From assembly GCF_003726095.1 (NCBI RefSeq), contig NZ_CP026031.1, positions 4,652,001 through 4,716,000 of the forward strand: a stretch of 64,000 bases of DNA, read 5' to 3'. The stretch's first letter is position 1; each line of letters starts with the position of its first letter. This document shows positions 28,832 through 30,726 of the stretch, one piece after another. The notes under the pieces are model-generated. The model was given only the letters and a program-made list of their open reading frames with translations. It did not search any database and had not been told where the DNA came from. The stretch comes from Niallia circulans. GTDB lineage: Bacteria; Bacillota; Bacilli; Bacillales; Cytobacillaceae. A program made the position numbers and the translations under genes.

Positions 28832-29161
28832 CTAGTTCTCTTGTCTTTTTTTAAATTTAACATATTCAAGAATGCCAGCAAAATCTTCTTTTGTGATTCC
28901 TTCTTCAATTGCCTCTTCTACCAAACTCATCCAGTCTTCATCAATGCCTTCTATCACTGTGTGATTATTGTCTAGTAGTTCCTCCACATTTGTCTCAAGA
29001 GAGTGGGCAAGTTTCGTTAATACTTGAAGAGAGGGATTTTTTTGAATTCCTCTTTCAATATAACTTAAATAAGATTTGGAAACACCAGATTTGTCGGAAA
29101 GTTCATTAATAGAAAAGCCTTTTTTTATTCTTAATGTCTTTATTTTTGCTCCAACCAGCAT
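28832..29161 (-). CDS. SinR-like transcriptional regulator (paralogue)
   Basis: A 109-aa protein with an HTH_3 (XRE) domain at about 5-62 (IKTLRIKKGFSINELSDKSGVSKSYLSYIERGIQKNPSLQVLTKLA) and a C-terminal SinI-type dimerisation segment (DEDWMSLVEEAIEEGITKEDFAGILEYVKFKK). This is the SinR/SlrR architecture. AAGGAG precedes the ATG. It differs from the second, more SinR-like gene 1.5 kb away, and could act as the SlrR counterpart forming heterodimers with SinR or SinI; that role is an inference. Likely regulates matrix or autolysin genes. Confidence 0.88.
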   Translation of the reverse strand: MLVGAKIKTLRIKKGFSINELSDKSGVSKSYLSYIERGIQKNPSLQVLTKLAHSLETNVEELLDNNHTVIEGIDEDWMSLVEEAIEEGITKEDFAGILEYVKFKKRQEN

Positions 29162-29494
29162 AACAATTTTCTCCTTATCACCTAAAGAAATATAATTTCA
29201 TTATAACGAACGATAAAATGAATAGAAAATATGAAAAAGCTAGATAATAGGAGTTATTCTGAGGAAAAGAATGATAGTTGTTCGTTAAAAAGAAAAAACG
29301 GTTGTTTTTGGAATTTTAAAAAATGATAGTTTTGCACTATACTTATGGGAAAGTTCTTTAATAAGAACATTATTGTGTTTTATAACATTATAATCCTAAT
29401 TAAAAAGATACTAGGATGGATTTTCTTACTAAATCGTAGCAATTATTTTTCAGCATACAAACCTAAAAGGAAAAGGCAAAGGAAGAGGTGAAAA
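29162..29494. promoter_or_regulatory. Regulatory region between the SinR-like gene and the 69-aa gene
   Basis: Holds opposed TAACGAAC (near 29202) and GTTCGTTA (near 29280) half-sites and the dyad GTTCTTTAATAAGAAC at 29353-29368, which consists of two SinR-type half-sites (consensus GTTCTYT) facing each other. A TATAAT near 29390 may be a -10 box for the plus-strand gene. Confidence 0.45.
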
Positions 29495-29704
29495 ATGTAT
29501 AGAAAAAACTGTGACATATGCAATAGACCATCGTACAGTAGTAGTGAACGAGGCAGGTGGATTTGTCCTATATGCCAAAATGACTTAACGGAATATCCTT
29601 TTTTTGATGCAATTACATTTGAACAAATTCATATTAATTATTCTTTTAAAAAAGTGCTAAAAAGCTATCAAACACAATATTATGATAGAAGACAAGATAA
29701 GTAG
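29495..29704 (+). CDS. Small zinc-ribbon-like hypothetical protein, 69 aa
   Basis: Starts MYRKNCDICNRPSYSSSERGRWICPICQNDL: two CxxC pairs 16 residues apart, a probable single zinc site. The rest (TEYPFFDAITFEQIHINYSFKKVLKSY) is unrecognised. GGAAGAGGTG precedes the ATG. It stands between the two Sin regulators and downstream of a SinR-like operator, so it may belong to the Sin regulon; its function is unknown. Confidence 0.7.
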   Translation: MYRKNCDICNRPSYSSSERGRWICPICQNDLTEYPFFDAITFEQIHINYSFKKVLKSYQTQYYDRRQDK

Positions 29705-29863
29705 TGCTGCTGGCATTAGAGAAATCTGTAAATAATGCATAAGTATGATTAATTCGATAAGATTCGCTGGAATCAACATATTTTGTAGAAACAACGAGAA
29801 ATATTTTAGTAATTTGTCCTAATTTTATGACAAATTACTGCATCATTTCATGAGGAAAAGCGA

Positions 29864-29869
29864 TATAAT
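29864..29869 (+). promoter_or_regulatory. -10 box of the riboswitch-sinI transcript
   Basis: TATAAT about 40 bases upstream of the aptamer; the -35 region is poor (TGCATC-like). Confidence 0.5.
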
Positions 29870-29904
29870 GGGAAAACAGTAAAGAATACGAGAAAAGGTA
29901 AATG

Positions 29905-30010
29905 TAAAAGGCAAACCAATACGAAAGTTTGGGACGCAAAGTCACGGATCTAATGTCTTAAAACAATGATGGCCGGACTGCCAAAATACAAATGTATTTT
30001 TGGGAGGGAA
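29905..30010 (+). ncRNA. Cyclic-di-GMP-I (GEMM-I) riboswitch upstream of sinI
   Basis: The aptamer runs from AGGCAAACC (29909) to GGACTGCC (29982). Diagnostic parts are GGCAAACC, a hairpin with GAAA tetraloop (CCAATAC-GAAA-GTTTGG), GGGACGCAAAG, then a second arm ending in GATGGCCGG, and P1 closed by GGCA with TGCC. Downstream, CCAAAATAC (29981-29989) can pair with GTATTTTTGG (29994-30003), which takes the first Gs of the GGGAGGG ribosome site. The two Cs used there also belong to P1, so ligand binding and the sequestering hairpin exclude each other. This predicts translation of sinI when c-di-GMP is bound; an ON switch is an inference. Confidence 0.88.
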
Positions 30011-30017
30011 GAATTAA

Positions 30018-30167
30018 GTGATTAATAGTCAACTTTTTACCGAGGAATTGGATTCAGAATGGATTCAATTAATTAATGAAGCCAAAAATATTGGAATGAA
30101 TTTGCAAGAAGTAAGAGAATTTTTGCGAAGTGAGAAGGATTACTTAATTCAAGAAAATCCGAAATAA
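30018..30167 (+). CDS. sinI: SinI, antagonist of SinR
   Basis: A 49-aa protein that fits the SinI anti-repressor: the core reads ELDSEWIQLINEAKNIGMNLQEVREFL, the hydrophobic helix-turn-helix hook by which SinI displaces the SinR dimer; it is clearly related to the C-terminal segment of the adjacent sinR (LDSEWLKIVKEAMDSGVSKKEFREFL). GTG 30018 follows GGGAGGG by 8 bases. It is expressed behind a c-di-GMP riboswitch and converges on sinR, whereas in B. subtilis sinI lies directly upstream of sinR in one operon. Confidence 0.9.
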   Translation: MINSQLFTEELDSEWIQLINEAKNIGMNLQEVREFLRSEKDYLIQENPK

Positions 30168-30208
30168 ACATTTGTATATAGAAAATGATTGTCCAAAAAT
30201 GGACAAAA

Positions 30209-30285
30209 AAGGTATCTCTACATTGAATTTTTTCACAATAATGGAATTATATTGTGAGGCATTCAATGTAGATAACTCTTTTGTA
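30209..30285. terminator. Bidirectional hairpin between sinI and sinR
   Basis: Outer stem CTACATTGAA/TTCAATGTAG encloses an inner stem TCACAATA/TATTGTGA. It lies between the convergent stops; T-rich flanks are present but imperfect. Confidence 0.65.
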
Positions 30286-30332
30286 ATGGAAAAATTTAAT
30301 AACCTATTTTAGCCATATAAGTGGAAAACGTA

Positions 30333-30656
30333 TTATTTTTTTTGTTCCAGTCTCCATCTGTTAAATTCCAAAAATTCACGAAATTCTTTTTTGGATACTC
30401 CAGAATCCATTGCCTCTTTTACAATTTTTAACCATTCAGAATCTAACTCATCCTTATTCTGTTGATCATTGATTAAATGATCGACTGGTATATTGAAAAC
30501 AGCTGCTATTTTTTCTAAAAACTGAATCGATGGATTGGATTGTAAATTTCTTTCCAAGGAACTTAAATAAGATTTTGCAACTCCGGCTTGTTCAGCTAAT
30601 TCTGACAAGGACATTCTCTTCTCTAAACGTAGCTGTTTTACACGATCCCCAATCAT
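30333..30656 (-). CDS. sinR: SinR, master regulator of biofilm formation
   Basis: A 107-aa repressor with an N-terminal HTH_3 domain (MIGDRVKQLRLEKRMSLSELAEQAGVAKSYLSSLERNLQSNPSIQFLEKIAAV) and a C-terminal dimer domain (DSEWLKIVKEAMDSGVSKKEFREFLEFNRWR) that closely match B. subtilis SinR. The frame opens at GTG 30674, but the ATG at 30656 gives the standard MIG N-terminus. SinR represses matrix operons and is inhibited by SinI. A dyad AAAGAAC-GAATT-GTTCTAT in the upstream region suggests autoregulation. Confidence 0.93.
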   Translation of the reverse strand: MIGDRVKQLRLEKRMSLSELAEQAGVAKSYLSSLERNLQSNPSIQFLEKIAAVFNIPVDHLINDQQNKDELDSEWLKIVKEAMDSGVSKKEFREFLEFNRWRLEQKK

Positions 30657-30726
30657 ACGCTCACTCACTTTCACTCTTTACGGTATGTATATTTATGATA
30701 GCATTTATAGATAAAAAGTTCCATAT

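Follow-up and report, generated by a model that had tools for sequence, protein, structure and literature searches.

A c-di-GMP-I riboswitch aptamer on sinI in Niallia circulans and many Bacillus relatives: a probable translational ON switch acting through SinI and SinR

The DNA studied here comes from the single-contig genome (5.18 Mb) of Niallia circulans, GCF_003726095.1. The window is the whole stretch that was analysed, 64 kb from position 4,652,001 to 4,716,000 of NZ_CP026031.1. It contains a c-di-GMP-I aptamer, a SinI-domain ORF on the same strand and a SinR orthologue on the opposite strand, in this order, so that sinI and sinR are convergent. The main features are as follows.

29900..29985, + strand: c-di-GMP-I (GEMM-I) riboswitch aptamer (RF01051 by cmscan, 76.6 bits, full length)
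30018..30167, + strand: sinI, 49 aa, GTG start (PF08671, 46.5 bits, cut-off 31.4)
30333..30674, − strand: sinR, convergent with sinI (Pfam: HTH_3 56.7 bits, SinI domain 52.5 bits)
28832..29161, − strand: second SinR-like gene, nearest the SlrR model (NF046032 85.6 bits, under the cut-off of 250; HTH_3 57.5 bits)

The first-pass annotation, made from the sequence alone, had placed a GEMM-I aptamer directly on sinI, and cmscan bears this out. The match covers positions 1–87 of the 87 of RF01051 (gathering score 35, E 2.8e-13), which was the sole Rfam family above threshold in the window. The P2 stem of the aptamer is GAAA-capped. In the passages of PMC4744006 and PMC11218506 used here, G20, A47 and C92 of Vc2 are named as ligand-contact residues, and the latter source gives G11, A38 and C81 of Bc1 as their equivalents. 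Based on our mapping via the Bc1 numbering, the corresponding residues of the window aptamer are present as G29910, A29938 and C29981.

SinR is a biofilm repressor, which the small protein SinI inactivates. The product of the window sinI carries the SinI domain with no HTH_3 alongside it (Pfam) and aligns with the SinI chain 1b0n_B of the SinR–SinI complex (E 0.0011). Its score against the NCBIfam SinI equivalog NF046031 was 34.3 bits, below the cut-off of 80, and by this model it is therefore a SinI-domain protein but no SinI equivalog; with this qualification, the 49-residue SinI read earlier from the ORF list was found correct, as was the convergent sinR. The sinR product matches the B. subtilis SinR chain 1b0n_A along its length (136 bits) and combines a Cro-type HTH with a SinI-type dimerisation domain, as expected for a SinR orthologue. 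Near these genes, an ORF of 69 residues (29495–29704, + strand) shows a CxxC...CxxC pattern and had no match in Pfam or NCBIfam; in two congeners it is retained, with the slrR-like gene and also a SinR box as neighbours. A phage relationship was also considered, and no match was found.

The genome contains seven c-di-GMP-I aptamers in total, 11 GGDEF matches and two SinI-only genes above the cut-off, both of which carry an aptamer. The second aptamer–sinI pair (contig positions 2928910–2929136) has no sinR nearby, and its neighbours encode a glycosyltransferase of the WecG/TagA type and a protein with a wall-anchor motif. Another aptamer (4799856–4799941) lies just 5′ of a PAS-GGDEF gene, so this probable diguanylate cyclase may receive feedback from its own product.

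To look for a GEMM-I aptamer followed by a SinI ORF in other genomes had been an early suggestion, and the pair was found in the genus, in the family and in a wider scan. In 13 Niallia genomes, 118 aptamers and 70 SinI-domain matches (E up to 0.001) were detected. A same-strand aptamer lay upstream of 30 of the 43 SinI-only matches versus none of the 27 SinR matches, and in these 30 pairs the SinI domain starts 43–79 nt past the aptamer. The family sample comprised 100 sinR loci, one per genome, from 21 genera among the rows listed for 193 genomes, and it favours high-scoring SinR; aptamers were called with a model (R1) built from 16 genus aptamers. An aptamer was present at 86 of the 100 loci and a SinI ORF came next in all 86, of which 83 were convergent with sinR and three had no sinR within the limits set. 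Among the 14 loci without an aptamer, eight had a SinI-like ORF and six did not (three of the six at contig ends). A recheck with Rfam agreed with R1 in 20 of 20 loci, 13 being assigned to RF01051 and seven to RF03167 (GGC), a family of its clan.

GTDB contigs were also scanned with a pattern, which returned at least 120 stretches, and in 100 of the 120 listed a SinI ORF was found downstream. Among the genera represented are Neobacillus, Cytobacillus, Mesobacillus, Jeotgalibacillus, Rossellomorea, Metabacillus, Sutcliffiella, Thalassobacillus and Heyndrickxia. These 100 stretches divide into 52 convergent with sinR, 20 with a tandem aptamer–sinI–sinR order and 28 with no sinR within 900 nt. 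The remaining 20, among them records of Vibrio, Planctomycetaceae and Nitrospirales and a few of Bacillaceae (such as Virgibacillus and Oceanobacillus), had no SinI ORF by profile. In Paenibacillaceae, the family of Gorillibacterium, 44 of the 79 genomes drawn had a SinI-domain match; an aptamer was found at three of the 30 SinR loci searched (1.5 kb on either side), and a SinI ORF follows in all three. The B. subtilis control genome gave no RF01051 match. Because the aptamer–sinI wiring recurs in many Bacillus relatives, the classic biofilm switch of these bacteria probably receives c-di-GMP, a signal of general lifestyle, as a direct input.

The convergent layout, common as it is in the family, could also be read in another way, namely that the riboswitch controls sinR through an antisense transcript and sinI is incidental. 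Such a reading has a precedent in PMC9943018 (2023), which, in the part cited here, ranks c-di-GMP riboswitches first among antisense-acting candidates and proposes antisense action of a c-di-GMP-I riboswitch on a SinR homologue in Paenibacillus. That case resembles ours in that a c-di-GMP-I riboswitch faces a SinR-like gene, but there it is taken as antisense to the repressor, whereas here a sense riboswitch stands on an intervening sinI. An antisense riboswitch should have no sense gene directly downstream, and in the window the same-strand sinI begins 32 nt after the aptamer. Every aptamer-bearing locus of the family and of Paenibacillaceae has a SinI ORF directly after the aptamer, and the expression platform is laid out around the ribosome site of sinI. 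Furthermore, in the 20 tandem stretches antisense action on sinR is impossible, and 19 of the 30 genus pairs have no SinR match within 3 kb. We therefore regard antisense control of sinR as very improbable, and the intervening sinI may give a simpler explanation of the SinR-linked case described in PMC9943018.

For a sense riboswitch on sinI, the reading we prefer, the following elements of the expression platform were found.

29981..29982, + strand: last two aptamer Cs (C29981 is likely the C92 equivalent in our mapping)
29981..30003, + strand: expression-platform hairpin, in which the first ribosome-site Gs are paired (shared by 122 of 132 distinct leaders)
30002..30008, + strand: GGGAGGG, Shine-Dalgarno of sinI, read from the sequence

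The hairpin is formed by the arms CCAAAATAC (29981–29989) and GTATTTTTGG (29994–30003), and the first two Gs of GGGAGGG are engaged in it. In the modelled free RNA, the pairs C29981–G30003 and C29982–G30002 have a probability of 0.89–0.90. The earlier claim that the aptamer Cs compete for the ribosome site thus stands for the CC–GG pairs, but only the first Gs of the site are strongly paired: G30002–G30003 are paired at 0.99 and A30005–G30006 partly (0.79 and 0.68), and G30004, G30007 and G30008 are mostly unpaired, so the OFF state in the window may be leaky. Keeping the two Cs unpaired in the model costs 4.3 kcal/mol and lowers the pairing of the ribosome site to 0.18–0.26, values that describe secondary structure alone and ignore ligand, magnesium and tertiary contacts.

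These elements are widely conserved. The leader rows number 179 (30 from the genus, 86 from the family and 63 named, the last two samples sharing genomes). In 164 of them the CC at the aptamer end is present; the other 15 have no CC at the expected position, some of them because the aptamer match was misplaced by a long P3 loop. For the platform test, in which the named loci were the 62 with SinI out of the first 80, the 40 further stretches being left aside, 163 rows were reduced to 132 distinct platforms. The hairpin was found in 122 of them (median 10 pairs). Of the ten misses, three do fold it, the ribosome site having been scored at a second G run, and seven do not. At the helix positions beyond the CC, many pair types occur among the folded leaders. 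Compared with shuffles, the platforms fold with a median z of −2.8, and 77% of them lie below −1.5. For 48 distinct arms, the duplex energy was −10.5 kcal/mol with their own partners and −9.2 kcal/mol with swapped ones (z −6). A cruder comparison of cis and trans arms, with the first GG as anchor, was nearly flat (6.14 versus 5.84 pairs of 9), and on 50 representatives it gave 5.66 versus 5.36. It should be noted that CC-to-G pairing by itself is present in 57% of shuffles, so the argument depends on the full helix. A terminator platform was also considered and rejected, since none of the 132 platforms has a run of six Ts; runs of five occur in ten, within a hairpin arm where inspected.

Based on the conserved hairpin between the CC and the ribosome site, a translational ON switch is predicted. 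The opposite sign, with c-di-GMP lowering SinI so that SinR stays active, deserves attention, since both signs occur among c-di-GMP-I riboswitches and PMC7793685 tables 'off' as well as 'on' examples in the part cited here. Nevertheless, the ribosome site is covered by Cs of the aptamer itself and should therefore become accessible in the bound state, as the low pairing of the site in the model with the Cs held also suggests, and the platforms contain no terminator-like element. An OFF switch thus appears improbable. In B. thuringiensis, sinI up-regulation upon overexpression of a c-di-GMP-making enzyme is cited in the same part of PMC7793685.

Upstream of the aptamer, three elements of a putative promoter region were recognised.

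29864..29869, + strand: TATAAT, probable −10 element for sinI transcription (identical in all 11 aligned sinR-linked genus leaders)
29784..29790, + strand: TGTAGAA, putative Spo0A box near-match (conserved in the 11 aligned genus leaders)
29828..29834, + strand: TGACAAA, putative Spo0A box near-match (in nine of the 11 genus leaders by eye)

A consensus scan at 29864..29869 gave no full sigma-70-type site. The 0A box consensus is TGTCGAA according to the part of PMC10134886 used here. Of 162 distinct regions, 58 (36%) contain this heptamer in the 200 nt before the aptamer, versus 1.4% in shuffles and one of 166 control stretches taken 500–700 nt upstream, a contrast that is not to be read as a probability because the upstream regions of the set are related. 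The two near-match heptamers are also frequent in the 162 regions, TGTAGAA in 28% and TGACAAA in 48%, versus 5% in shuffles for each. The window leader itself has near-matches only, within a block conserved in the 11 genus leaders, and the second GEMM–sinI copy of the genome has a perfect 0A box at −74. The first-pass annotation had set the riboswitch against B. subtilis, where sinI was said to be controlled by Spo0A instead; the word "instead" was too strong in view of the perfect boxes among the relatives. The enrichment of 0A boxes upstream of the aptamers suggests that c-di-GMP probably adds to Spo0A control and does not replace it.

Candidate targets of SinR were sought by its operator. 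SinR binds best to an inverted repeat of GTTCTYT, as stated in the part of PMC3163267 consulted for the motif. The SinR-box palindrome, GTTCTYTNNARAGAAC, has one perfect site in the genome, about 55 nt 5′ of an exopolysaccharide operon encoding Wzz, a tyrosine kinase, a sugar transferase and a glycosyltransferase, and a one-mismatch box lies within the same operon. Over the 13 Niallia genomes, 25 perfect boxes were found versus one for the reversed pattern. Only perfect sites are enriched: one-mismatch boxes in the genome numbered 15 versus 11 for the reversed pattern, and in the window 14 boxes with up to three mismatches were found versus 17.6 expected. One degenerate site in the window is nevertheless worth listing.

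29353..29368, no strand assigned: SinR-box-like palindrome with one mismatch, upstream of the slrR-like gene (perfect site at the same gene in two congeners)

As a single one-mismatch site is not above chance, this site gains weight only from the perfect boxes of the two congeners.

It is conceivable that SinI and SinR are wired to c-di-GMP in this species and that SinR acts on targets other than matrix genes, for example a peptide cluster or the SinR paralogue. TasA was sought as a target, and no match to PF12389, the TasA family, was found in this genome. In congeners, perfect boxes occur near the gene of a lasso-peptide B2 protein, at the slrR-like gene and at genes of no clear role. On the other hand, the sole perfect box of this genome precedes the exopolysaccharide operon, and perfect boxes stand at the same operon in two congeners, which makes three Niallia genomes with this one. 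In eight congeners, a box lies 5′ of a gene, recognised by the similarity of its first residues, whose copy at one locus (L335) encodes a family 2 glycosyltransferase. Based on these sites, we consider a SinR regulon confined to non-matrix genes unlikely. The earlier expectation that biofilm follows from sinI translation was itself a deduction; the lack of a PF12389 match weakens it and the box 5′ of the exopolysaccharide operon speaks for it.

Some details of the perfect boxes in the genus may be added. The boxes at the lasso-peptide gene were seen in three Niallia genomes (L330, L336 and L349), 5′ of the gene that in L330 encodes the B2 protein. At three other Niallia loci (L340, L350 and L338) a perfect box lies 39 nt 5′ of a conserved ORF of 60 residues.

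Returning to control through SinI and matrix genes, we suggest the following scheme, which is probable on sequence and modelling grounds. The 5′ leader of sinI would act as a translational ON riboswitch for c-di-GMP, working through SinI and SinR, with a probable additional input from Spo0A. In the absence of the ligand, the last two aptamer Cs would be paired to the leading Gs of the sinI Shine-Dalgarno as part of a longer hairpin, of about 10 bp, and ribosomes would load less easily. Upon c-di-GMP binding, the C92-equivalent C would contact the ligand and the ribosome site would be freed. SinI would then be made and bind SinR, and the SinR targets would be derepressed; the exopolysaccharide operon is the best candidate among them in this genome. 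In many relatives sinI transcription is probably Spo0A-dependent as well, so that the locus may work as a two-input gate.

The arrangement is already in print. Table 4 of PMC4342826 (2015) contains the entry "(c-di-GMP)-sinI" for Bacillus methanolicus MGA3, that is, the same riboswitch class on sinI, in a 5′ UTR derived from RNA-seq data; as a table entry, it gives no mechanism, distribution or layout in the part of the paper cited here. The genome that we take to be that of MGA3 has the aptamer, a SinI ORF and a convergent sinR (locus L230). In our searches of the open literature on sinI/SinR and c-di-GMP riboswitches, nothing was found on mechanism or distribution, nor on the breadth, the conserved platform or the two-input logic described above.

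In its full length, its capped P2 and its contact residues the window aptamer is like other RF01051 riboswitches. It differs in that an antirepressor gene is controlled and the platform sets the last Cs of the aptamer against the ribosome site; we know of few c-di-GMP-I riboswitches on antirepressor genes. With the sinIR system of B. subtilis the locus shares a SinI-domain antirepressor, a SinR orthologue and SinR boxes at exopolysaccharide genes, and many aptamer-bearing relatives share 0A boxes upstream of sinI. In B. subtilis, however, sinI precedes sinR in tandem, and the control genome has no match to the aptamer model, so this species cannot show a riboswitch–sinI route.

To our knowledge, the route from c-di-GMP to the biofilm programme in Bacillus-like bacteria is not well known. 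A riboswitch on the antirepressor would offer a short path from the second messenger to SinR. Our confidence falls a little short of even in a broader picture, in which, across Bacillaceae-like genera, Spo0A would set the transcription of sinI and c-di-GMP its translation, SinR would target exopolysaccharide genes, B. subtilis would be the exception without a riboswitch, and some reported antisense cases at SinR homologues would be, more simply, sense riboswitches on an overlooked sinI. The sites at which the scheme can be tested are C29981–C29982 against G30002–G30003, the sinI start codon and the box of the exopolysaccharide operon.

Within the one genus Niallia there are intact, altered and decayed aptamer–sinI copies for comparison. 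In the genome of N. circulans NBRC 13626, the CC at the end of the aptamer has one base changed. In two congeners (L083 and L082), the sinR-linked sinI keeps only remnants of the 3′ half of the aptamer, as judged by eye, and in L083 sinI has an internal stop; both carry other GEMM–sinI copies. Outside the genus, a contig of Alicyclobacillus acidiphilus (L133) contains two c-di-GMP-I aptamers within 8 kb, each followed by a SinI-domain ORF.
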